Below, piece by piece: positions 51,950 to 64,000 of a stretch of DNA of 64,000 nucleotides. The stretch's first letter is position 1; the number at the start of each line of letters is the position of its first letter. Made by a program: the position numbers and the translations under genes. The notes under the pieces are model-generated. The model did not search any database. It saw only the letters and a program-made list of their open reading frames with translations, and was not told the DNA's origin. This stretch comes from Radicibacter daui (GTDB lineage: Bacteria > Pseudomonadota > Alphaproteobacteria > Radicibacterales > Radicibacteraceae): the NCBI GenBank assembly GCA_030657355.1, contig CP131056.1, positions 1,009,001-1,073,000 on the forward strand, written 5' to 3'.

Positions 51950-52603
51950 ATGGGCGGGGTTAGACCAGAAGATTTCCTGCGAGATCAGTTTCCTGCCGGG
52001 TATTGGCACTTGATCCCGGCTACCTTGCGGACAGCCTATAAAGCCGCGCAGGAGTTGGCCAATTCTGATCCCATTTTACAGATAGAAAGCGCTGTAGATA
52101 ACCGTGGCCGCTTAATCTCTTGGGCGACAGATTTGGGATTTAAAAGGCTCATAGAATCCGGCAAGTTGCCATTTGACTATGCTTGGCGGCCTTTTGTCAT
52201 GCCGACCGGTCGTTATCTTCAAATTCGATTATCTCATTCCGTGCTCACTATTAGTCAGGTTGCGAATCCGAGGCGACAGCCACGCTCGGTGAGATTCCGG
52301 GAAAATGGATGTGTGAACAACCAGCCTTTCTTTGATTTTCCGGATTTTGCGACTGAGCAGGATGTTATTGGGCTGCCACATCTCCTGTTGATCCATGGGC
52401 ATCAGGAGTTACATTTCGCCCATCTAACGGTTCCCCATCCCGAGCATGCGAAGGGATTTCGCTACAGGTCGGGAAATCTTATGAAGATTCCTCATTTGGT
52501 CGAGACTAGTGAGCCAGCCGTGGAAAACACGGACGCTGATTTGGACGACCTCATCTCTCTCAAGGAAGAGATAGAAAAGTGGCGACGAGACAATGACAGC
52601 TAG
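51950..52603 (+). CDS. Unknown protein, putative partner of the XRE-metalloprotease
   Basis: This 217-aa soluble protein has no signal peptide, no membrane segment and no family I recognise. Visible blocks are FPAGYWHLIPATLRTAYKAA, FDYAWRPFVMPTGRYLQIRL, FRENGCVNNQPFFDFPDF, and HLLLIHGHQELHFAHLTVPHP, a His-rich stretch. A charged helical tail (DADLDDLISLKEEIEKWRRD) follows. Its base composition is lower in GC than the surrounding genes. It overlaps the XRE gene by 11 bp, so the two are co-expressed; a toxin or effector role is inferred only from this pairing. Confidence 0.8.
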   Translation: MGGVRPEDFLRDQFPAGYWHLIPATLRTAYKAAQELANSDPILQIESAVDNRGRLISWATDLGFKRLIESGKLPFDYAWRPFVMPTGRYLQIRLSHSVLTISQVANPRRQPRSVRFRENGCVNNQPFFDFPDFATEQDVIGLPHLLLIHGHQELHFAHLTVPHPEHAKGFRYRSGNLMKIPHLVETSEPAVENTDADLDDLISLKEEIEKWRRDNDS

Positions 52604-53789
52604 AGACGGAAACATCGTTCCGTTTCCAAGCGCCGCCCGAGATGAAAATCTAGGGCGGCAATTGATTCCGGGACGCCTTTATGAGGCTCGCTTAGCAAAG
52701 CGCCTTAATCAGACTGAGCTGGCTGACAAAGTCGGTCTTAGCCGGCAAGCGATCTCCGCATTTGAACAGGGGGCGAAATCCCCTGAAGCTGCAACCTTGG
52801 TCAATTTGGCCCGGCAGTTGGAACAGCCAGTGGCGTACTTCACTGGTGTTGAGCCAGAGAGTTTTGGTGAAATCCGGGCAAAATTTTTTAGAAAAGTCGG
52901 CCCTGACACCAAGCGTCGAAATATGGCCTGTGAAGTTTTGGCCAAATGGTTGGTGAATGTATCTTGCTTATTTGATGGTATGGTGAATTATCCGAATGTG
53001 AATATTCCTGTATATTCTCCAGAGGATGAGATTTCTAGTTCTTATTCCGATATGGAAATTGAAAATATCGCAACAGAAGTTAGAAAAAATTTTGGCTTGG
53101 GCCTAGGTCCCATTTCGAATGTTGTTCGGCTGTTGGAGACTCAAGGGGTTATTGTGTCTCGCTTCCAGCTCCAGGGGGAGTCTGTAGAGGCATTCTCTTT
53201 TTGGAGTGGTGATAGACCCTTCGTTTTTCTCGCCTCTGACAAGGAAAGCGGCGCTCGGGCTCGATATGATGCGGCACACGAGCTTGGCCATTTGGTCCTG
53301 CATCGTTGGGTGAGTAAAGACGAAATTGAGAATAAGGATAGATTAAAGAAAATCGAAAATGAGGCGGATCGGTTTGCTAGTGCATTTCTTTTGCCTAAAG
53401 AGACTTTTTTAAATGAAATATATTCACCTAGATTGGCCAATTTTGTTTCTTTGAAGGATCGTTGGAAGGTTTCAATACAGGCTATGATATATAGATGTAA
53501 GCATCTTGGTATATTTGATGAGCAGCAAATAACAAGCTTATACAAACAAATTTCATCTAGAGGTTGGAGAAAAAAGGAACCTTTGGATGGCTTGGGTGGG
53601 ATTAAGATAGAGGATCCCATGCTGTTGCGTAGGGTGATTGAAGTTGCTATCGATGGTGGGCGAATTGGTCGTGATAATGTTAAGGTCGCATTAGGGTTTT
53701 CTCAGTCAGTTATTGAGCAATTGGCTAACTTACCTTCTGGATATTTGTCTATTTCTCCACCAACTGAATTTCTTCCAACTTTAAAATGA
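52593..53789 (+). CDS. XRE-family helix-turn-helix / ImmA-IrrE metalloprotease fusion
   Basis: This 398-aa protein has an N-terminal XRE helix-turn-helix (RLNQTELADKVGLSRQAISAFEQGAKSPEAAT, seen in two helices, residues 35-66) and a central DUF955 (ImmA/IrrE) peptidase domain. The zinc site is intact: ARYDAAHELGHLVLHRW with HELGH, then ENEADRFASAFLLP with the third Glu. The family cleaves repressors (ImmA, IrrE cutting DdrO) or acts as antitoxin with XRE. The gene, especially its second half, is AT-rich compared with its neighbours, suggesting acquisition. It overlaps its partner's stop by 11 bp. Confidence 0.9.
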   Translation: MTARDGNIVPFPSAARDENLGRQLIPGRLYEARLAKRLNQTELADKVGLSRQAISAFEQGAKSPEAATLVNLARQLEQPVAYFTGVEPESFGEIRAKFFRKVGPDTKRRNMACEVLAKWLVNVSCLFDGMVNYPNVNIPVYSPEDEISSSYSDMEIENIATEVRKNFGLGLGPISNVVRLLETQGVIVSRFQLQGESVEAFSFWSGDRPFVFLASDKESGARARYDAAHELGHLVLHRWVSKDEIENKDRLKKIENEADRFASAFLLPKETFLNEIYSPRLANFVSLKDRWKVSIQAMIYRCKHLGIFDEQQITSLYKQISSRGWRKKEPLDGLGGIKIEDPMLLRRVIEVAIDGGRIGRDNVKVALGFSQSVIEQLANLPSGYLSISPPTEFLPTLK

Positions 53790-53838: not shown

Positions 53839-55482
53839 TCAGGCCAGTTTCAGGTGCCGGATGCCCTTGAGCTCGGCCTCTTCCAGCGCTTCCTCGTACC
53901 CCGCATCGGCATAACGCATCACACCCAGCGAGGTGTCGTTGGTCAGCGCGTTCTTGAGGCGCAGGTCAGCCTCCGGCGTACCGTCGGCCACCAGCGTCAC
54001 GCCGCTGGAGGTCATGTAACCGGCATAACCGCCGCCGCCGGAATGGATGACGACAAGGTCAGCCATCGAGGAACAGAGCGTCATGGCGTTGAGGAGCGGC
54101 CAGTCGGCAATCGCGTCGGAGCCGTCCTTCATGTTCTCGGTCATGATGTTCGGATGCGCCATCGCTCCGGCGTCCAGATGGTCACGCGAGAAGGCGACCG
54201 GGCCCTTGAGCTCGCCCGAGGCCACCATGCGGTTGACCGCCCGGGCCACTTCGGTGCGCACGCCATGGCCCAGCCAGGCAATACGCGCCGGCAGCCCTTC
54301 GAACGGCACATTCTCGCGGGCAAGGCGGATCCAGTTGGTGACGATGCGGTTATCCGGATAGTCCCGCAGCACCAGATCGTCGATCTTGCGGATATCCTCC
54401 GGATCACCCGACAGAGCCATCCAGCGGAAGGGGCCGATGGCGCGGCTGAAGAGCGGGCGCAGCCAGGCTTCGGTGAAGATCGGGATATCGAAGGCGTTTT
54501 CCACGCCGCCATCACGGGCATGGGTGCGGATGAGATTGCCATTGTCGAAGACGACGGCGCCCTTCTGCTGGAACTCCAGCATCGCCCGCACCTGGGTGAC
54601 GATGGATTTGCGGCTCTCCGCCATCAGGCGCGCCGTGTCAGACGTGCGCATGGCGCGCACTTCTTCCAGCGTGAAACCGGCCGGCACATAGCCGTAGACA
54701 AGATCATGCGCGGCGGTCTGGTCGGTCACGATATCGGGCACGATGCCGCGCCGGGCGATCTCGGGATAAATGTCGGCGGCATTGCCCACCAGCGCGATGG
54801 AGGCGGGTTTGCGCGCTTTTACCGCCGCGTCGATCATGGCAAGCGCGCTGTCGAGGTCCGGCGCCACGGTGTCGATATAGCCGATGGCCTTGCGCTTTGC
54901 GACACGCTCCGGATCGATATCGACGCCCAGGATCGCGGCATTGGCCATGCGGCCCGCCAGCGGCTGGGAGCCGCCCATACCGCCAAGTCCGGCGGTCAGG
55001 ATGAAGCGGCCATGCAGGTCGCCGTCAAAATGCTTCTCGGCGATGCGGGAGAAGATCTCGTAGGTGCCCTGGATGACGCCCTGGCTGCCGATATACTGCC
55101 AGGCGCCCGCCGTCAGGCCGCCCCAGCAGATGAGGCCCTTTTCCTGCAGGTCGTAGAAATACTCGGCCTTGGCCCACTGCCCCACGATGTTGCAGTTGGC
55201 CATGATGACCAGCGGCGCGGCCGCATGGGTCTTCAAAACGCCGATAGGCTTGCCGGACTGGATGATGAGCGTCTCATCCTCTTCCATCGTCTTCAGCGTC
55301 TCGACGATGGCGTCATGTGCTGCCCAGCTCCGCGCCGCCTTGCCAAGCGCGGCATAGACGATGAGCTGGTCGGGGTTCTCGCCGACGCTCAGCACATTTT
55401 CCATCAGGCGCAGCAGGGCTTCCTGCCGCCAGCCCTTGCAGCGAAGGGTGGGGCCGCCGGGCACGGGGAAACGCGGGTTCAT
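53839..55482 (-). CDS. Urocanase-family hydratase, probable thiourocanate hydratase
   Basis: This 547-aa NAD+-dependent hydratase shows urocanase blocks: CKGWRQEALLRLMENVL, IIQSGKPIGV, GAWQYIGSQGVIQGTYE, ILTAGLGGMGGSQPLA and the DHLDAGAMAHP segment. It departs from canonical HutU: the Cys-containing motif LPARICWVG reads LPARIAWLG (A402), and the HHGGGVGMG loop reads HSGGGGYAG. No hutH/hutI/hutG set is nearby; it is the last gene of an operon with DUF917, hydantoinase and carbamoylase. The context suggests hydration of thiourocanate to the thiohydantoin propionate. AAGGAGGAG precedes the ATG. Confidence 0.82.
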   Translation of the reverse strand: MNPRFPVPGGPTLRCKGWRQEALLRLMENVLSVGENPDQLIVYAALGKAARSWAAHDAIVETLKTMEEDETLIIQSGKPIGVLKTHAAAPLVIMANCNIVGQWAKAEYFYDLQEKGLICWGGLTAGAWQYIGSQGVIQGTYEIFSRIAEKHFDGDLHGRFILTAGLGGMGGSQPLAGRMANAAILGVDIDPERVAKRKAIGYIDTVAPDLDSALAMIDAAVKARKPASIALVGNAADIYPEIARRGIVPDIVTDQTAAHDLVYGYVPAGFTLEEVRAMRTSDTARLMAESRKSIVTQVRAMLEFQQKGAVVFDNGNLIRTHARDGGVENAFDIPIFTEAWLRPLFSRAIGPFRWMALSGDPEDIRKIDDLVLRDYPDNRIVTNWIRLARENVPFEGLPARIAWLGHGVRTEVARAVNRMVASGELKGPVAFSRDHLDAGAMAHPNIMTENMKDGSDAIADWPLLNAMTLCSSMADLVVIHSGGGGYAGYMTSSGVTLVADGTPEADLRLKNALTNDTSLGVMRYADAGYEEALEEAELKGIRHLKLA

Positions 55483-55508: not shown

Positions 55509-56603
55509 TCAGCGGCCAGCAAGCGCGTAGCGCGCCAGCTCAATGCCCATGGCCTTTTCCACCGGCGGATAGACGCTGGGGTCCAGCACGCTGGCGGAAA
55601 GCGGGATGATGCTCATCGGTACATGCAGCACATGGATGCGCATGCCGACATGCAGCTGGCCGACGCTGAGCGGCTCGCCCTCCGGGCTCAGCGTGGTGAT
55701 CACGTCGGGAAAGGTAGCGATGCGGGCGCCGCCGGCATCATCCACCGCCATATATTCGTTCATCACATGCAGCGTGCTGGCCTTGTCGCCGCGCCCGAGC
55801 GTGACGGTGCCGATATCGAAGGCCTCTTTCGTGTAGACCACGTCCTTGGCCGTAATCTCGCCTTCCACAAGGATGGAGCCGCCCGTCGTCTTGCAGATGG
55901 CATCGATGATGGCGCTGCCGCCTTTCGCTTCTGCCGCGATGATGGCCTCTCCCAGCGCCAGCGCCATGGAGATGCCGCCAAGCGCGGCGTGGCTCTTAAC
56001 ATAGGAAGCGCGCACCGGGTTGCGGCAGGAGGCAATGAAGCCTCCCGACATGTCGGAGGCGGTGCGCAGGATCGGGGAGACCTTGGCGGTGGCGCCACGC
56101 GTCACCAGCTCGATATAGCGCCCTTCCTCCCGGTTGCCGCCCACGGCGGTCTGGATCATCGGCTCGGGCGAGGCGGCAAGGCCGATGGAGCCCATATCTC
56201 CGGTCGGATGGGCGCGGATATCGCCCACCGCATCCACCACCTTGGTGCCGAGAATGGCAGAGGGCAGCCAGCCATTGAGTGTGGAAGATTTGCCGTTCTG
56301 CCCGACCATGAGGCCGGAGAGTTTTTCGCCCAGTTCTTTTTCCAGAAGGCGCACGGCGTTGACGTAATCGACGCCCTGCATCTCCCACTTCGTGGTCCCG
56401 GCGGGGGCGCCGATGGCGGCAGCGGTAGCGACCCAGTCATTGGCATCCAGCTCGTCCACCGAAACAAGCTCCGGCTTGCCGGCGCGCACCGCAGCGGTAC
56501 CCAGCATGCGGCCATGGTCAGCCCAGCCGCCGCCGCCGGCAGCGTAGACAGAACCTCCCTTGACCGCTGCCTCGACGTCCTTCTCCGTCAGGATGCGTCC
56601 CAT
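55509..56603 (-). CDS. DUF917 family protein, probable thiohydantoin desulfurase
   Basis: This 364-aa protein matches DUF917 (S-methyl-thiohydantoin desulfurase family) over its length: AAVKGGSVYAAGGGGWADHG near the start, GDIRAHPTGDMGSIGLAASP in the middle and a beta-rich C-terminus. Between a urocanase-like hydratase and a hydantoinase, the predicted job is removal of sulfur from 3-(5-oxo-2-thioxoimidazolidin-4-yl)propionate to give hydantoin-5-propionate. It starts 44 bp after the M20 gene and is 26 bp before the hydratase gene. Specificity for the thione or S-methyl form cannot be told here. Confidence 0.82.
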   Translation of the reverse strand: MGRILTEKDVEAAVKGGSVYAAGGGGWADHGRMLGTAAVRAGKPELVSVDELDANDWVATAAAIGAPAGTTKWEMQGVDYVNAVRLLEKELGEKLSGLMVGQNGKSSTLNGWLPSAILGTKVVDAVGDIRAHPTGDMGSIGLAASPEPMIQTAVGGNREEGRYIELVTRGATAKVSPILRTASDMSGGFIASCRNPVRASYVKSHAALGGISMALALGEAIIAAEAKGGSAIIDAICKTTGGSILVEGEITAKDVVYTKEAFDIGTVTLGRGDKASTLHVMNEYMAVDDAGGARIATFPDVITTLSPEGEPLSVGQLHVGMRIHVLHVPMSIIPLSASVLDPSVYPPVEKAMGIELARYALAGR

Positions 56604-56647: not shown

Positions 56648-57931
56648 TCAGGGCAGGGCGGCGTCGATACGTTTGACTGTTTCCAGCAGCACGGCGGCGC
56701 CCATCGCCACCTCGTGCGGCTCGGTCCATTCCTCCGCGCAGTGGCTGCGCCCGCCAAGGCAGGGGATGAAGATCATCGCTGCCGGTGCCACGCGGGCGAA
56801 CCACGCCATGTCATGCCCGGCGCCCGACGCCATGCGGCGGTGGCCGGCACCCAGCAGGTCGCAGGCGCCTTCCAGCTGCTTCATCAGTGCTTCGGTGCTG
56901 GGGGTCGGCGGGTTGTCGGAAACCCGGCGCGGCGGCGCGATGGTCACGCCGTGGCGTCCGGCGGTTTCTTCCACCAGTTCGGCCAGGCGCACCGCAAAGG
57001 CTTCCATATCGGGGCGCAGTTCGGCGCGGGTGTCGATCAGCAGACGGGCCCGGCTCGGCACCACATTGGCGGCATTGGGCTCGATATCGAACTCGCCCAC
57101 CGTGGCGGCGAAATGCCCCGGCCCCTTTGCGCGCTCCACCGCATCGGCGCGGATGGCCAGCACCAGTTCGCTGGCGGCAACCAGTGCATCGAGGCGATTG
57201 GTCATCAAGGTGGTGCCGGCATGGTCCGGCCGGCCCTCGACGATGATCTCGAAGCGGGTGATGCCGGAGATGGCGGTAACGACGCCGATATCGAGCTTGC
57301 TGCTTTCCAGCACCGTGCCCTGCTCGATATGGAGTTCCAGATAGGCGGCAATGTCGCTGCGCTTGGCTTCGGCCAGCCGGTCGGGATGGCCGCCCATACG
57401 GCGGATGCCGTCGACCAGCTTCTCGCCCTCGGAATTCTCGCGGGCCAGCATCACCTCATCCAGCGTGCCGGAGATGCCGCGGCTGCCGACGCAGGAAAGG
57501 CCATAGGGGCTCACTTCCTCGGCAAGGCAGTCGATCACCTCAAGGTCATGCTCCAGCGTCACGCCGGCTTCCATCAGGGCGCGGGCCACTTCCAGCCCGG
57601 CCAGCACGCCGGCGGGGCCGTCGAAGCGGCCACCATCCGGCACGGTGTCGGTATGGGAGCCGAGCACGATGGCGCCGGCACCGGGGCGCGAACCCTTGCG
57701 GCGGCCGATCAGGTTGCCGGCGGTATCCAGCCTCACTTCAAGGCCGGCATCCTGCATGTGGGAGACCAGCCAGTCGCGCCCTTCCAGAAAACGCGGGGAA
57801 AAGGCGCGCCGGGTCCATTTCCGGTCCGGCTCGGTAATCTCGGCCAGCGCCATCAGATCGTCCCACAGCCGCTGCTGGTTGACCGGCAGGTTGCTGCGGG
57901 ATTTTTCGGAAGCGGGAACGGGGGTGGTCAT
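56648..57931 (-). CDS. M20 family hydantoinase/carbamoylase amidase, probable N-carbamoyl-L-glutamate hydrolase
   Basis: This 427-aa metal-dependent hydrolase has LGSHTDTVPDGGRFDGPAG with H93 and D104, the E-E pair in CLAEEV, ELHIEQG with the His, and HAGTT in the dimerisation lid. This is the amidase branch with N-carbamoyl amino acid and allantoate hydrolases. The context points to N-carbamoylglutamate to glutamate, CO2 and NH3. The ATG at 57931 overlaps the amidohydrolase stop as TGATG; a TTG at 57934 is in frame. Confidence 0.85.
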   Translation of the reverse strand: MTTPVPASEKSRSNLPVNQQRLWDDLMALAEITEPDRKWTRRAFSPRFLEGRDWLVSHMQDAGLEVRLDTAGNLIGRRKGSRPGAGAIVLGSHTDTVPDGGRFDGPAGVLAGLEVARALMEAGVTLEHDLEVIDCLAEEVSPYGLSCVGSRGISGTLDEVMLARENSEGEKLVDGIRRMGGHPDRLAEAKRSDIAAYLELHIEQGTVLESSKLDIGVVTAISGITRFEIIVEGRPDHAGTTLMTNRLDALVAASELVLAIRADAVERAKGPGHFAATVGEFDIEPNAANVVPSRARLLIDTRAELRPDMEAFAVRLAELVEETAGRHGVTIAPPRRVSDNPPTPSTEALMKQLEGACDLLGAGHRRMASGAGHDMAWFARVAPAAMIFIPCLGGRSHCAEEWTEPHEVAMGAAVLLETVKRIDAALP

Positions 57932-59310
57932 CAAATCTCTCCGGCCAGGATGCGGGTGGCGGGCGGGCGCACGAAGCGCCCGGTGCCCGGTTCGGCCAGC
58001 ACGGATGTGCCATCGAAGGCAAGTTGTCCGCGCAGCCAGGTGGCGCTGACCTTATAGGGCAGCTCCATCCCCTCATAGGGGCTCCAGCCAACCACATTGT
58101 GGCCGCTGGCCGCAGGGTCGTAGCGATAAGGTTCTGGCGTCAGCACGGTAATGTCGGCGTCACGGCCCACGGTAAGGGCGCCCTTGCTGTTATCGATGCG
58201 GAAATGCCGGGCCGGATTTTCCGCCATCAGCCGTGCCGCCCAATGGAGCGGCACGCCGCGCTTCAGCGCTCCGGCCACAAACAGCGGCACCATCACCTCC
58301 AGCCCCGGCACGCCGGAGGAGTTGGTGAGCATGTCGGCCTTCGTCTTGCGGTCTTCCGACCAGCTGACATGGTCGGTGGAAACCAGCGTCACATTGCCGG
58401 CAGCCACATGGCGCCACAGCTTCTCCACCTCGGCGCGCGGGCGGATCGGCGGGTTGATCTTGGCCTTGCCGCCAAGGCGGCTCACATCATTCTCTTCATC
58501 CAGCACCAGATAGTGGATGCAGGCCTCGATGGTCGCCTCATATCCTTGCGCCCGGTAACCGGCCGCGATGTCGTAACCGCGGCCCAGCGAGCAGTGCACC
58601 ACATGGGCCGGGCAGCCGGTCAGCGCCCCGGTCTCATAGATGTCGTGCATGGCGAGCAGTTCGGTGATCGGCGGGCGCGACATGCCATGGGCGCGCCAGT
58701 CGGTAATGCCGGCGGCCTTGACCCGCGCCATGAAGGCATCGACCGCCTCGTGGTTCTCGTTATGCACACCGGCGGCAAGGCCGGTCGGGGCGATGGCGCT
58801 GAAGCAGTCGTAAAGGAGCTGCGGCGGGATGCGGGGGAAGCGCTTTGCATCGGTGCCGAAGGTGGAGAACTTGAAGGCGGCAACACCTGCGGCCACCTGC
58901 TCGGTTATGCGGGCCGGGCCTTCCTCCGGGTTCACGGTGCCATAGAGCGCCACATCCACGCGGGCGGTCGCCTCGGCATGGGCGGCCTTCTGCTTCACCG
59001 CCCCGGCGGAGCAGACGAGGTTGCCCTCGTCATACGGCATGTCGACGATGGTGGTGACGCCGCCGGCGGCTGCCGAGCGGGTGGACCAGATAAAATCTTC
59101 CTGGTTCTTCTGCGAGAGCGAATGCACCTGCGCGTCGATGGCGCCCGGCAGGATCAGGGCCTTGCCCAGCAGGTGGCGCTCGCGCGCAGCCGGCGGCTCT
59201 CCCATGCCCACGGCCGCCACCTTGCCATCCCGTACCGCCACGAAGCCGGCTTCCAGCACCCGGTCAGGCAGCACGACGGTGCCGGCGAGAACGAGGTCGA
59301 AATCGCTCAT
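57931..59310 (-). CDS. Cyclic amidohydrolase (hydantoinase/allantoinase family)
   Basis: This 459-aa TIM-barrel enzyme has the binuclear metal pattern of hydantoinases: K147 (FKFSTFG), H183, H239 (HVVHCS) and D313 (STDHVSW). The first HxH motif is Q61-V-H63 in PGAIDAQVH, so one ligand is Gln; a QVH form is known in some dihydroorotases. The proposed substrate is hydantoin-5-propionate, giving N-carbamoyl-glutamate. The start overlaps the permease stop by 4 bp (ATGA). Confidence 0.85.
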   Translation of the reverse strand: MSDFDLVLAGTVVLPDRVLEAGFVAVRDGKVAAVGMGEPPAARERHLLGKALILPGAIDAQVHSLSQKNQEDFIWSTRSAAAGGVTTIVDMPYDEGNLVCSAGAVKQKAAHAEATARVDVALYGTVNPEEGPARITEQVAAGVAAFKFSTFGTDAKRFPRIPPQLLYDCFSAIAPTGLAAGVHNENHEAVDAFMARVKAAGITDWRAHGMSRPPITELLAMHDIYETGALTGCPAHVVHCSLGRGYDIAAGYRAQGYEATIEACIHYLVLDEENDVSRLGGKAKINPPIRPRAEVEKLWRHVAAGNVTLVSTDHVSWSEDRKTKADMLTNSSGVPGLEVMVPLFVAGALKRGVPLHWAARLMAENPARHFRIDNSKGALTVGRDADITVLTPEPYRYDPAASGHNVVGWSPYEGMELPYKVSATWLRGQLAFDGTSVLAEPGTGRFVRPPATRILAGEI

Positions 59311-60059
59311 ATCTTGTCTCCCGTACGGGCAAGCCCGCTCCGGCGGGCAGCGTTTCGTACGACCGCGCCGAGCGCGTCGTAGATCAGGATAGCCATCAGG
59401 GCGACGACGATGCCGCCCTGGAGGATGAAGGCGTCATTGCTGGAAAGAAGCCCCGCCACGATCACCTCGCCCAGCCCCTTGGCGGCGACGGTTGATCCCA
59501 GCGTGGCGGTGCCGACATTGACGATGGTGGAGATGCGCACACCTTCAAGGATGACCGGCAGGGCGAGTGGTAGCTCGACACCGAACAGGCGCTGGCGCGC
59601 ATTCATGCCCATGCCGCGCGCGGCCTCCACCACCGGGGCCGGTACCTCGCTGAGGCCGGCGAGCGCGTTTTCGAAGATCGGCAGCAGCCCGTAGAGGAAA
59701 AGGGCGATCAGCGTCGGTTTGAGGCCGAAGCCCACGCTCGGCACGGCAAGCGCCAGCACCGCCACCGGCGGCACCGTCTGGCCGATATTGGCAAGGCTGC
59801 GCGAGAAAGGCAGGAACTCGCGGCCCGCCGGCCGGGTCACGAAAATCGCCATGCCGACAGCGACGATTGTCGCCAGCACGGCAGCCAGCAGCACGATGCC
59901 CAGATGCGCCATCGCCAGCTGCCAGAAGGGCGTGCGGTCATAGATGGCCGGCGCGCCGTTCTGCGTCAGTGGCTCGAACAGCGGCTGGAACAGATGCGGG
60001 TCGACCAGAAAGGCCGCCAGTACCAGAACCACCGCAAGGCGCAGGAGAGTAACGGTCAT
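59307..60059 (-). CDS. OpuC/YehW-type ABC transporter permease
   Basis: This protein of about 250 aa has some six transmembrane helices and the OpuC-type permease signature EAARGMGMNARQRLFGVELPLALPVILEGVRIS, seen here in adjacent pieces. An earlier VPPVAVLALAVPSVGFG segment and a GLGEVIVAGL segment are also present. The ATG at 60059 overlaps the ATPase stop (ATGA); the ATG at 60068 is also in frame. It pairs with the second, longer permease. Confidence 0.88.
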   Translation of the reverse strand: MTVTLLRLAVVLVLAAFLVDPHLFQPLFEPLTQNGAPAIYDRTPFWQLAMAHLGIVLLAAVLATIVAVGMAIFVTRPAGREFLPFSRSLANIGQTVPPVAVLALAVPSVGFGLKPTLIALFLYGLLPIFENALAGLSEVPAPVVEAARGMGMNARQRLFGVELPLALPVILEGVRISTIVNVGTATLGSTVAAKGLGEVIVAGLLSSNDAFILQGGIVVALMAILIYDALGAVVRNAARRSGLARTGDKI

Positions 60060-60994
60060 AACGGGCATCCCGCCTCGGCCAGCACGCGGGAAAGCCGCAC
60101 GATGCCAAGGTCAATGCCGTCGGCGCCCACTACCGGCGCGGCATCCCGCCGGGTCCAGATCAGCTGGGAGAGGGCATCGCGCAGGTTGGTGGTGGCCGTA
60201 ATCGGCGTGCCCTCCGCCGTGCCCGGCTCGGCCAGGTCGGCCACATAGGCGAGGGAGAGCAGGCGGAAGGGGCGCTCGCCATTGGCAATCAGCTGCTCGA
60301 CGAAACCGGCAGCCGGGGCGCCTAGTATGGCTTCCGGACGGTCATATTGCAGCAGCTTGCCGCCATCCATCACCGCAATGCGGTCGGCCAGCATGACCGC
60401 CTCTTCCATGTCATGCGTCACCAGCACGATGGTGGTGCCGAAGCGCTCATGGATCGCCAGCAGGTCTTCCTGCGCCTTGGCGCGGATAACGGGGTCGAGC
60501 GCGCCGAAGGGCTCATCCATCAGCAGCACTTCCGGCTCGGCGGCAAGGCCGCGCGCCACGCCCACACGCTGCTGCTGCCCGCCCGAAAGCTCATGCGGAA
60601 ACTTGCCGGCATAAAGCGCCGGGTCGAGCTGGAAGAGGGTGAGGAGTTCGCTGACACGCCTGTCGATGCGGGCCTTGTCCCAGCCGAGGAGGTGCGGCAC
60701 GGCGGCGATGTTGCGGGCAACCGTCCAGTGCGGGAAAAGCCCGTGGCCCTGGATCACGTAACCGATGCGCCGGCGCAGGATGTCCGGCTGCAAGGTCTTT
60801 GTATCCACCCCGTCGATGCGGATGGCGCCGCCCGTTGGCTCGATCAGCCGGTTGATCATCCGCAGCGTGGTGGATTTGCCGGAGCCGGAGGTGCCGACGA
60901 TGACGGTGATGGTGCCGCGCTCGATGGTCATGGACACATCGTCGACAGCCAGCTGGTCGCCAAAACGGCGGGAAAGACGGTCGATCTCGATCAT
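60056..60994 (-). CDS. OpuC/YehX-type ABC transporter ATPase
   Basis: This 312-aa protein has Walker A GTSGSGKST at residues 34-42, Q-loop YVIQGHGLFPHWTV, signature LSGGQQQRVGVARGLA, Walker B VLLMDEPFGALD and the switch His in THDMEEA. The C-terminal residues after 240 form a CBS-like part typical of betaine/osmoprotectant ATPases. The ATG at 60994 overlaps the permease stop by 4 bp. Confidence 0.93.
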   Translation of the reverse strand: MIEIDRLSRRFGDQLAVDDVSMTIERGTITVIVGTSGSGKSTTLRMINRLIEPTGGAIRIDGVDTKTLQPDILRRRIGYVIQGHGLFPHWTVARNIAAVPHLLGWDKARIDRRVSELLTLFQLDPALYAGKFPHELSGGQQQRVGVARGLAAEPEVLLMDEPFGALDPVIRAKAQEDLLAIHERFGTTIVLVTHDMEEAVMLADRIAVMDGGKLLQYDRPEAILGAPAAGFVEQLIANGERPFRLLSLAYVADLAEPGTAEGTPITATTNLRDALSQLIWTRRDAAPVVGADGIDLGIVRLSRVLAEAGCPL

Positions 60995-62163
60995 GACTTC
61001 CGGCCTTTCATAAGCTCGATACCGGCGTCGAAGAGAATGGCGGCGGCAAAGGCCAGCGCCACGGTCGGCAGGGCGCCCAGCAGCACCAGATCGGTTGCCG
61101 TCTGCCCCAGCCCCTGAAAGACGAAGACGCCGAAGCCGCCGCCGCCGATAAGGGCGGCAATCGTCACCATGCCGATATTCTGCACCGTGACGATGCGCAG
61201 GCCGGCGAGGATGACCGGCAGGGCCAGTGGCAGTTCCACCTGCATCAGGCGCTGGGCGCTGGTCATGCCCATGCCGCGCGCTGCCATCACCGCCTCGGGC
61301 GGCACCTGCCGCATGCCGACGGCGGCATTGGCGACGATGGGCAGCAAGGAATAGAGAAAGAGCGCCACCATGGCCGGCGCCGTGCCGATGCCGCGGATGC
61401 CAAGGTCCTTCGCCAGCGCCACATGGGCGGCGAGATAGCCCAGCGGCCCCATCAGCAGGCCGAAGAGGGCGATGCTGGGCACGGTCTGGATGATGTTGAG
61501 CACCGGCAATGTCACCGAGCCTAGCTTCTCGATGCGGGCGCAGGCGATGCCAAGCGGGATGCCGATGACGGCGGCCGCCACCACGCTGGCGCCGGCAAGG
61601 GCCAGATGTTGCCCCGCTTCGCTCCAGAAGCTGCCGGCACGGTTGGCATATTCCTTCATCAGGGAAAGGCCGTCCCAGACGCCGAAATGCAAGAGGGCGC
61701 CGAAGAGGGCGAAGGCGGCAATCAGGGCGCCGACGCGCAGGGCCGGGCCGGGGGAAAGCCGCACCAGCGCATCGCCGGCACCCAGAAGGCCGGCAAAACA
61801 GCCGATCCAGAAACCGGCCCCCGGGGCGATGCGGGCATAGCGGTTGCCTTCCGGCGTCAGGAAACTTGCGCTTTGCCCCATCACCAGCACCAGCACGACC
61901 AGCAGCACCAGTGCCGCCGCCAGCCGCCACCCCGCCCGGCTGCGGGCGGTGAAGACGGCGCAGAAGAGCATCAGTGCCAGGATCAGGGCCGCGACCCCGC
62001 CCATCGGCAGGGCGGAGAGCAGCAGGTGATCGACGCCGGAGGCGATGCGGGTCGGGCGGAAGGTTGCCAGCGGGGTAAGTGACAGCCCGGCGAGCGCCAG
62101 CAGGGCGATGGCACTGCCCAGCCGGTCCATTCCGGGTGCGGTTCTGAAAATCGGCGAGGCCAT
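60991..62163 (-). CDS. OpuC/YehY-type ABC transporter permease with extra N-terminal helices
   Basis: This 390-aa protein has about ten hydrophobic segments. The C-terminal half is the permease core (IIQTVPSIALFGLLMGPLG, then EAVMAARGMGMTSAQRLMQVELPLALPVILAG in two parts, then GGGGFGVFVFQGLG). The first 170 residues add transmembrane helices, as in YehY. It lies 75 bp after the binding-protein gene, a gap that contains a stable hairpin. Confidence 0.9.
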   Translation of the reverse strand: MASPIFRTAPGMDRLGSAIALLALAGLSLTPLATFRPTRIASGVDHLLLSALPMGGVAALILALMLFCAVFTARSRAGWRLAAALVLLVVLVLVMGQSASFLTPEGNRYARIAPGAGFWIGCFAGLLGAGDALVRLSPGPALRVGALIAAFALFGALLHFGVWDGLSLMKEYANRAGSFWSEAGQHLALAGASVVAAAVIGIPLGIACARIEKLGSVTLPVLNIIQTVPSIALFGLLMGPLGYLAAHVALAKDLGIRGIGTAPAMVALFLYSLLPIVANAAVGMRQVPPEAVMAARGMGMTSAQRLMQVELPLALPVILAGLRIVTVQNIGMVTIAALIGGGGFGVFVFQGLGQTATDLVLLGALPTVALAFAAAILFDAGIELMKGRKS

Positions 62164-62238: not shown

Positions 62239-63150
62239 TTACTTGAGGAAGCCGTGCGAGGTCAGATAGTCCTTGGCAACGGCGGCGGCGGGTTCGCCCC
62301 CCACCTGGATGCGGCCGTTCAGCTCCTGCAGGGTTACGAGATCAAAGCTCTCGAACACCGGCGCCAGCATGTCGGCGATCTGCGGGTACTGCTTCAGCAC
62401 CTCTTCGCGGATGATCGGGGTCGGCAGGTAAACCGGCTGCACGCCCTTGTCGTCATCCAGCACGGTAAGGCCCGAGGGGGCGATGCCGCCATCGGTGCCA
62501 TAGACCATGGCGGCGTTGGTGCCTTCATTCTGCTCGGCAGCGGCCTTGATGGTCGCTGCGGTATCGCCGCCGGAGAAGGTCAGCAGCTGATCGGAAGAAA
62601 GCTGGAAGCCATAGGTCTTCTGGAAGGCGGGCAGGGCGCTTGCCGAATTCACGAACTCGGCGGACGCTGCGAGCTTCACCTTGCCGCCGCCGGAAACCCA
62701 CTTGCCGAAATCGCTCATGGTCTTGAGGCCGTCGGCCTTGGCAACCTCGCTGCGTACGGCAATCGCCCAGGTGTTGTTGGCCGGGGCCGGCGTCAGCCAG
62801 ACGATCTTGGCGCCGTCATAATCCAGCTTCTTGGCTTCTTCGTAGCCCTTGACGGCGTTGTTCCACACCGGCTCATCGGCCTTGTTGTAGAAGAAGGCGG
62901 CGTTGCCGGTGTACTCGGGATAGATATCGATTTCGCCAGCGGTGATCGCCTTGCGCACCACGGGGGTGCCGCCCAGCTGGATGCGGTCCTGTGTCTTGAT
63001 GCCGCCCTGCTCGAGCACGAGCTTGATGACATTGCCGAGCAGGCTGCCTTCGGTATCGATCTTGGAGGAAACCACCACATCGGCGGCGGCGGGGCCCGCG
63101 GCGAGCGCGGCGGCGGTGGCAAAAGCCAGGGCCAGTTTACCCAGGGTCAT
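62239..63150 (-). CDS. OpuC/OsmF-type periplasmic betaine-binding protein
   Basis: This 303-aa protein has a Sec signal (MTLGKLALAFATAAALAAGPAAA, cleaved before D) and the glycine-betaine-type binding fold: VVVSSKIDTEGSLLGNVIKL, then AGEIDIYPEYTGNAAFFY, then VYGTDGGIAPSGLTVLDDDKG. The ATG at 63150 follows AGGAGAG. It is paired with two permeases and an ATPase. The ligand is probably a betaine; ergothioneine is proposed because of the adjacent catabolic genes. Confidence 0.88.
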   Translation of the reverse strand: MTLGKLALAFATAAALAAGPAAADVVVSSKIDTEGSLLGNVIKLVLEQGGIKTQDRIQLGGTPVVRKAITAGEIDIYPEYTGNAAFFYNKADEPVWNNAVKGYEEAKKLDYDGAKIVWLTPAPANNTWAIAVRSEVAKADGLKTMSDFGKWVSGGGKVKLAASAEFVNSASALPAFQKTYGFQLSSDQLLTFSGGDTAATIKAAAEQNEGTNAAMVYGTDGGIAPSGLTVLDDDKGVQPVYLPTPIIREEVLKQYPQIADMLAPVFESFDLVTLQELNGRIQVGGEPAAAVAKDYLTSHGFLK

Positions 63151-63231
63151 GATTATCTCTCCTGCTGTTCGTTGGTGGCCTGCGGTTTTTGTCGGGTGCA
63201 AGCCTTATGTGTTGATTGGATTTGCAGATTT

Positions 63232-64000
63232 CTACTGCGCTGCCAGTTCAAGCGGCGGTACGGCGGCAAGGCCGAGCGCCTGGTCCAGCAGCGGCAGGGC
63301 AGTTGCGGCGAGCAGCGGGCCGGTGCCGGCCTGATTGCTGAAATCGACCGCCAGCGCCTCCAGTTCGGAGGAGAGCGAGCGGTCTTCGGTGGTCTGCGCC
63401 GCGATGAGCCGCACGCGCGCCCGCACAAGGCCCGCGGCGCCCTGTGGCACGGCCCCGCGCAGGTCCAGCGCCTGGGCGGCAAACAGGCCTTCCAGCGCCA
63501 TCATCATGGTGAGTGCCTGCGTCTGGGTTTCCAGCCGTTCCGCCAGCAGCGGAGCGAGCGAGCCCTCATCCTCGATACCGTCGGAAACGGTGATGGCGAG
63601 CGCCGAGACCGGCATCGTTTCCGCCATCACGCGGGCATAACAGTCACCGGCCAGCTTCAGCAGCGGGCCGAAGCCGGTGGCGCCGGAGGTCGGGTCGACC
63701 AGATTCATCGGCAAGCCGGCATGGCGGCCGTTGGCCAGCAGCACGAGGCGCGAAAGCGAGTTGCGCGCCACATGGGCAATCGCGGCGGCGGCCGATTGCA
63801 GCACCAGCGCCACATCCAGCGGCAGCGAGCCGCCATGGGTATAAAGCGCGCCATCCAGCACGGCGGGATTATCGTCGCAGCGTGCCGTTGCCCGCTCCAG
63901 CGTGCGAAGGCCGCTTGCCAGCACTTCCAGCACCGAGCCGAACACCTGCGCCAGCATGCGGAAGCTGAGGGGATCCTGAACACGCGTTGCCTGCGGCCAG
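63232..64000 (-). CDS. HAL-family aromatic amino acid lyase, C-terminal part (probable ergothionase)
   Basis: The frame runs off the right edge; about 256 residues of the C-terminus are visible. They include the lyase hallmark RVQDPLSFRMLAQVFGSVLEVL, then the DNP segment (RCDDNPAVLDG) and GGSLPLDVALVLQS. The MIO-forming ASG motif and active-site Tyr lie outside the window. The sequence differs from classical HutH: VSDGIEDEGSL replaces the SQEDHVSMG type. The gene is upstream of the betaine transporter and the hydratase/desulfurase/hydantoinase/carbamoylase set, so elimination of trimethylamine from ergothioneine is proposed. Confidence 0.72.
   Translation of the reverse strand, partial: WPQATRVQDPLSFRMLAQVFGSVLEVLASGLRTLERATARCDDNPAVLDGALYTHGGSLPLDVALVLQSAAAAIAHVARNSLSRLVLLANGRHAGLPMNLVDPTSGATGFGPLLKLAGDCYARVMAETMPVSALAITVSDGIEDEGSLAPLLAERLETQTQALTMMMALEGLFAAQALDLRGAVPQGAAGLVRARVRLIAAQTTEDRSLSSELEALAVDFSNQAGTGPLLAATALPLLDQALGLAAVPPLELAAQ

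Follow-up and report, generated by a model that had tools for sequence, protein, structure and literature searches.

The window, that is, the whole stretch of 64,000 nucleotides of Radicibacter daui DNA that was analysed, ends in a run of genes on the minus strand. Listed by coordinate, with the matches on which each name is based, they are:

53839..55482, minus strand: predicted thiourocanate hydratase, 547 aa (NF058530, 1038 bits, cut-off 930; PDB 7ned, 827 bits; residue tally)
55509..56603, minus strand: predicted thiohydantoin desulfurase, S-Me-THD-like/DUF917 family, 364 aa (NF058529, 599.7 bits, cut-off 440; Pfam S-Me-THD_N and S-Me-THD_C)
56648..57934, minus strand: predicted N-carbamyl-L-glutamate amidohydrolase ErtE, 428 aa (NF058540, 600.8 bits, cut-off 520)
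57931..59310, minus strand: predicted hydantoin-5-propionate amidohydrolase ErtD, 459 aa (NF058538, 797.9 bits, cut-off 600), overlapping ErtE by 4 bp
59307..60068, minus strand: ABC importer permease, YehY-like (PF00528), overlapping ErtD by 4 bp
60056..60994, minus strand: ABC importer ATPase, ProV-like (TIGR01186, 281.6 bits, under the cut-off of 326.6)
60991..62163, minus strand: ABC importer permease, YehW-like, 390 aa (PF00528)
62239..63201, minus strand: substrate-binding protein, OsmF type (NF049931, 501 bits, cut-off 400; PDB 5teu/4nd9, about 450 bits)
63232..64000, minus strand: putative ergothionase-like trimethylamine lyase, C-terminal part (best PDB match ergothionase 6s7j, E 1e-38)

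Read in the direction of transcription the order is lyase, OsmF-type binding protein, permease, ATPase, permease, ErtD, ErtE, desulfurase and hydratase. The lyase gene extends past the window and in full encodes 532 aa (L003:10233-11831; genome C1:1072232-1073830); beyond it lies a divergent gene for a LysR-type regulator (L003:12265-13191). The start of the ATPase, read by hand as MIEIDRLSRRF, forms an ATGA overlap with the next permease gene. Several of the genes overlap by 4 bp, an arrangement as in one operon, whose members would make up a complete set for ergothioneine degradation. The hydratase is thus encoded together with an ergothionase-like lyase and a thiohydantoin desulfurase; the neighbours match the named models of every later step, and hut genes are absent from the operon. 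As in the ergothioneine utilisation operons of Rhizobium, Devosia, Ensifer and others, the genes for the later steps (NF058538, NF058540 and NF058529) are all present and contiguous. Convergent with the operon end is a plus-strand gene (52593-53789) for a regulator with HTH and Peptidase_M78 (IrrE-like) domains, preceded by a 217-aa open reading frame without a Pfam match (51950-52603); the pair resembles ImmA-type or toxin-antitoxin-type combinations of regulator and protease.

The hydratase gene begins with ATG and runs for 547 codons with no internal stops. Its product matches all three Pfam urocanase domains and retains the GGMGG dinucleotide-binding stretch, in keeping with the first-pass annotation, which had described a urocanase homologue with its NAD-binding and overall blocks kept and its catalytic motif altered. 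The alterations were also as described there: residues 397-407 read LPARIAWLGHG, with Ala402 (codon GCC) at the position of the HutU cysteine, and the loop at residues 480-488 reads HSGGGGYAG instead of HHGGGVGMG. To place these residues in a wider set we used an alignment of 119 rows, consisting of the window protein, 87 relatives from the loci described below, the solved structures 7ned and 8q9u, 28 HutU proteins of the class and a further set of relatives. Rows were assigned to the thiourocanate-hydratase type (TUH-type) or to HutU according to how closely they match the window protein (identity of at least 65% versus at most 54%) and not by residue pattern, and the division itself was not counted as evidence. 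Many of the 90 TUH-type rows are close rhizobial relatives and hence non-independent; the range is extended by 7ned, a Paracoccus copy (L136) and a Burkholderia copy (L135), the last with LPARIAWLGHG and HSGGGGYSG.

Position 402 was Cys in 28 of 28 HutU rows and Ala in 89 of 90 TUH-type rows, including all 89 proteobacterial relatives; the remaining TUH-type row, 7ned, has Gly, as does the S-methyl enzyme 8q9u. The HSGGGGYAG loop was present in 90 of 90 TUH-type rows and is absent from 8q9u; its counterpart HHGGGVG[MI]G occurred in 27 of 28 HutU rows. This uniformity within each set of rows indicates that Ala402 and the loop are fixed features of a family, neither chance nor sequencing error. 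The change of Cys to a small residue, of the loop His to Ser and of Leu to His at 406 are common to, or near, the residues of 7ned and 8q9u, and the Gly402 of both solved enzymes suggests that what is needed at this position is a small residue and not Ala specifically. The first-pass annotation had also read the changes as fitting an enzyme that accepts sulfur at C2 of the imidazole. It is plausible that the sulfur is accommodated through Ala402 and the changed loop; this part is a correlation only, because about 65 positions separate TUH-type from HutU rows at 95% conservation or more. An AlphaFold2 model of the hydratase, built from a five-sequence alignment, was poor (mean pLDDT 61.9) and was left out of structure searches and contact analysis.

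In NCBIfam release 20.0, thiourocanate hydratase, S-methyl thiourocanate hydratase and HutU each have a curated model of their own. The window protein scored 1038.3 bits over residues 12-546 with the first (NF058530), above the cut-off, and 744.2 bits with the second (NF058531), below its cut-off of 880. It also passed the low cut-off of the HutU model TIGR01228 (698.4 bits against 375), but that model is non-discriminating, since it accepts 7ned (704 bits) and 8q9u (657.6 bits) as well. As controls, 7ned gave 1022 bits with NF058530 and 8q9u gave 960 bits with NF058531, and the two specific models therefore separate the solved enzymes. Scores with NF058530 were bimodal across 289 genomes of the class, with four proteins at 963-1038 bits and all others at or below 722. 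The closest solved relative of the window protein was 7ned, which carries the PDB name 'Urocanate hydratase'; it resembles the window protein in its full-length match above the cut-off, the identical HSGGGGYAG and the same group-specific residues, and differs in having Gly where the window protein has Ala402. In a tree of 36 sequences, a branch with SH-aLRT support of 99 set all TUH-type rows, among them 7ned, apart from HutU; the single S-methyl row (8q9u) formed a long branch whose position there is uncertain. From these sequence comparisons and the gene neighbourhood, we consider it almost certain that the window protein is a thiourocanate hydratase, catalysing step 2 of ergothioneine degradation. 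As the protein passes the HutU cut-off, it may retain some residual turnover of urocanate. NCBIfam already names the family and has named models for the three later steps, and the window protein is an ordinary member. Published enzymology reportedly comes from Burkholderia sp. HME13, and the Seebeck group is said to have worked on ergothionase and the S-methyl enzyme; in the open-access literature we found no text on thiourocanate hydratase itself.

The alternative that the protein is an S-methyl-thiourocanate hydratase acting in the breakdown of S-methyl-ergothioneine, which had been left open beside the 2-thio substrate in the first-pass annotation, draws on its likeness to 8q9u: the two share the urocanase fold, a small residue in place of Cys at 402, H406, S481 and F431. 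However, 8q9u lacks the HSGGGGYAG loop and differs at residues 441, 446 and 447, and the window protein failed the model with which 8q9u scores 960 bits. The adjoining desulfurase is likewise of the other type, failing its own S-methyl model, NF058532, with 286 bits against a cut-off of 450. No member of the S-methyl family was found in 398 genomes, leaving 8q9u as its sole representative. Of the two substrates first suggested, then, the 2-thio compound is favoured by models, solved relatives, tree and neighbourhood, and we regard the S-methyl compound as very improbable.

We give still less credence to the proposal that the gene encodes a second ordinary urocanate hydratase, a HutU paralogue serving histidine degradation whose active site has drifted harmlessly. 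The window protein does share with HutU the fold, the three Pfam domains and the dinucleotide-binding stretch, it passes TIGR01228, and public records call its relatives urocanate hydratase; but the altered Cys402 equivalent and HHGGG loop are substitutions fixed in 90 relatives, the protein lies in a separate clade, and it is encoded at a separate locus in an operon for thiohydantoin and hydantoin steps with no hut genes. In addition, the genome already has a full HutU within a hut locus, where Cys and HHGGGVGMG are kept and the scores are 969 bits with TIGR01228 and only 680 with NF058530. The first-pass argument against an ordinary histidine-pathway urocanase thus held. The data do not tell sulfur from selenium, and a further alternative is a hydratase for some other C2-modified imidazole acrylate, such as one formed from selenoneine or a different thiohistidine betaine; as the models that the neighbours match are all named for the ergothioneine route, we hold this idea, too, to be extremely improbable.

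For the thiourocanate hydratase and its neighbours we propose the following pathway, in which the reactions and the use of NAD+ come from established knowledge of the families, while the assignment of the sequences to families, the structure and conservation of the operon, and the intact HutU elsewhere were observed directly. The ABC importer would take up ergothioneine, its presumed substrate, and the lyase, which lacks the MIO group, would eliminate trimethylamine to give thiourocanate. The NAD+-dependent hydratase would then add water to form 3-(5-oxo-2-thioxoimidazolidin-4-yl)propionate, in which the desulfurase would swap sulfur for oxygen to yield hydantoin-5-propionate; ErtD would open the ring to N-carbamyl-L-glutamate, and ErtE would convert this to L-glutamate. 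In urocanase, NAD+ acts as an electrophile: it first forms an adduct with the imidazole ring, and the addition of water follows. Because the dinucleotide-binding stretch is kept in the window protein, the same chemistry acting on thiourocanate appears likeliest.

The lyase has the histidine ammonia-lyase fold but carries GSIGCADIG where histidine ammonia-lyases have GSVGASGDL, so that the Ala-Ser-Gly triad of the MIO group is replaced, as expected of an ergothionase, which lacks this group (PMC13405746); its orthologues likewise lack the triad. NCBIfam gave no ergothionase model match for the lyase, and its relation to 6s7j is distant. EgtD was not found in the genome, and an EgtB-like match was weak and below the cut-off.

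Conservation was counted over 76 named loci with complete 5' flanks. All 76 contain the desulfurase and ErtE, 70 contain ErtD and 66 the lyase. In all ten genomes searched, including those of nine of the ten loci without a nearby lyase, an orthologue of the lyase (46-49% identity) is present elsewhere in the genome; the tenth such locus (L073), whose genome was outside the lyase search, has a 29% match within the locus. The notion that loci without ergothionase run a thiourocanate-only pathway was rejected, as the ten genomes searched all have an ergothionase orthologue elsewhere. Upstream of ErtE, four Rhizobium loci (L037, L039, L043 and L060) carry an ABC importer of the polar-amino-acid type together with a gene for a luciferase-like monooxygenase; they have neither ErtD nor ergothionase within 10 kb, and ergothionase is encoded elsewhere in the genome.

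The OsmF-type importer module of the window was found at only 11 of the 76 loci, compared with 66 to 76 for the enzymes; the importer module thus varies between loci, and the core consists of the enzymes. Its binding protein scored about 450 bits against the rhizobial and betaine-type structures 5teu and 4nd9 and about 93-100 bits against the ergothioneine-binding EgtUC chains. The protein may serve in the import of ergothioneine or of a different quaternary amine. That it belongs to a dedicated ergothioneine transporter distinct from the known EgtU type is a tentative suggestion, to which we give somewhat less than even weight.

Beyond annotation the gene is ordinary; what the analysis adds is a residue signature that tells thiourocanate hydratases from HutU, namely a small residue at 402 with HSGGGGYAG as opposed to Cys with HHGGGVG, which can serve as a sequence test for the family. 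Plasmid records in public databases still label relatives of these proteins urocanate hydratase and DUF917 family protein, and with such labels the capacity for histidine degradation may be over-called and that for ergothioneine degradation overlooked.

Outside the window, the same genome has in its hut locus a second homologue of histidine ammonia-lyase without the Ala-Ser-Gly triad (motif GSVGYLSHMAH; L004:572-2218, minus strand; genome C1:350661-352022), adjoining HutF, HutC and an intact HutU. If it works as ergothionase does, its reaction might be the elimination of trimethylamine from hercynine, with urocanate as the product; we offer this as a lead. Among 385 genomes of the class, the exact DNA pattern occurred only in the genome that carries this gene. 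Homologues with 66-68% identity and the same motif type are present in Burkholderia pyrrocinia (L137) and on pSymB of Sinorhizobium meliloti (L138), where they adjoin ABC importers of the amine or glycine-betaine type.
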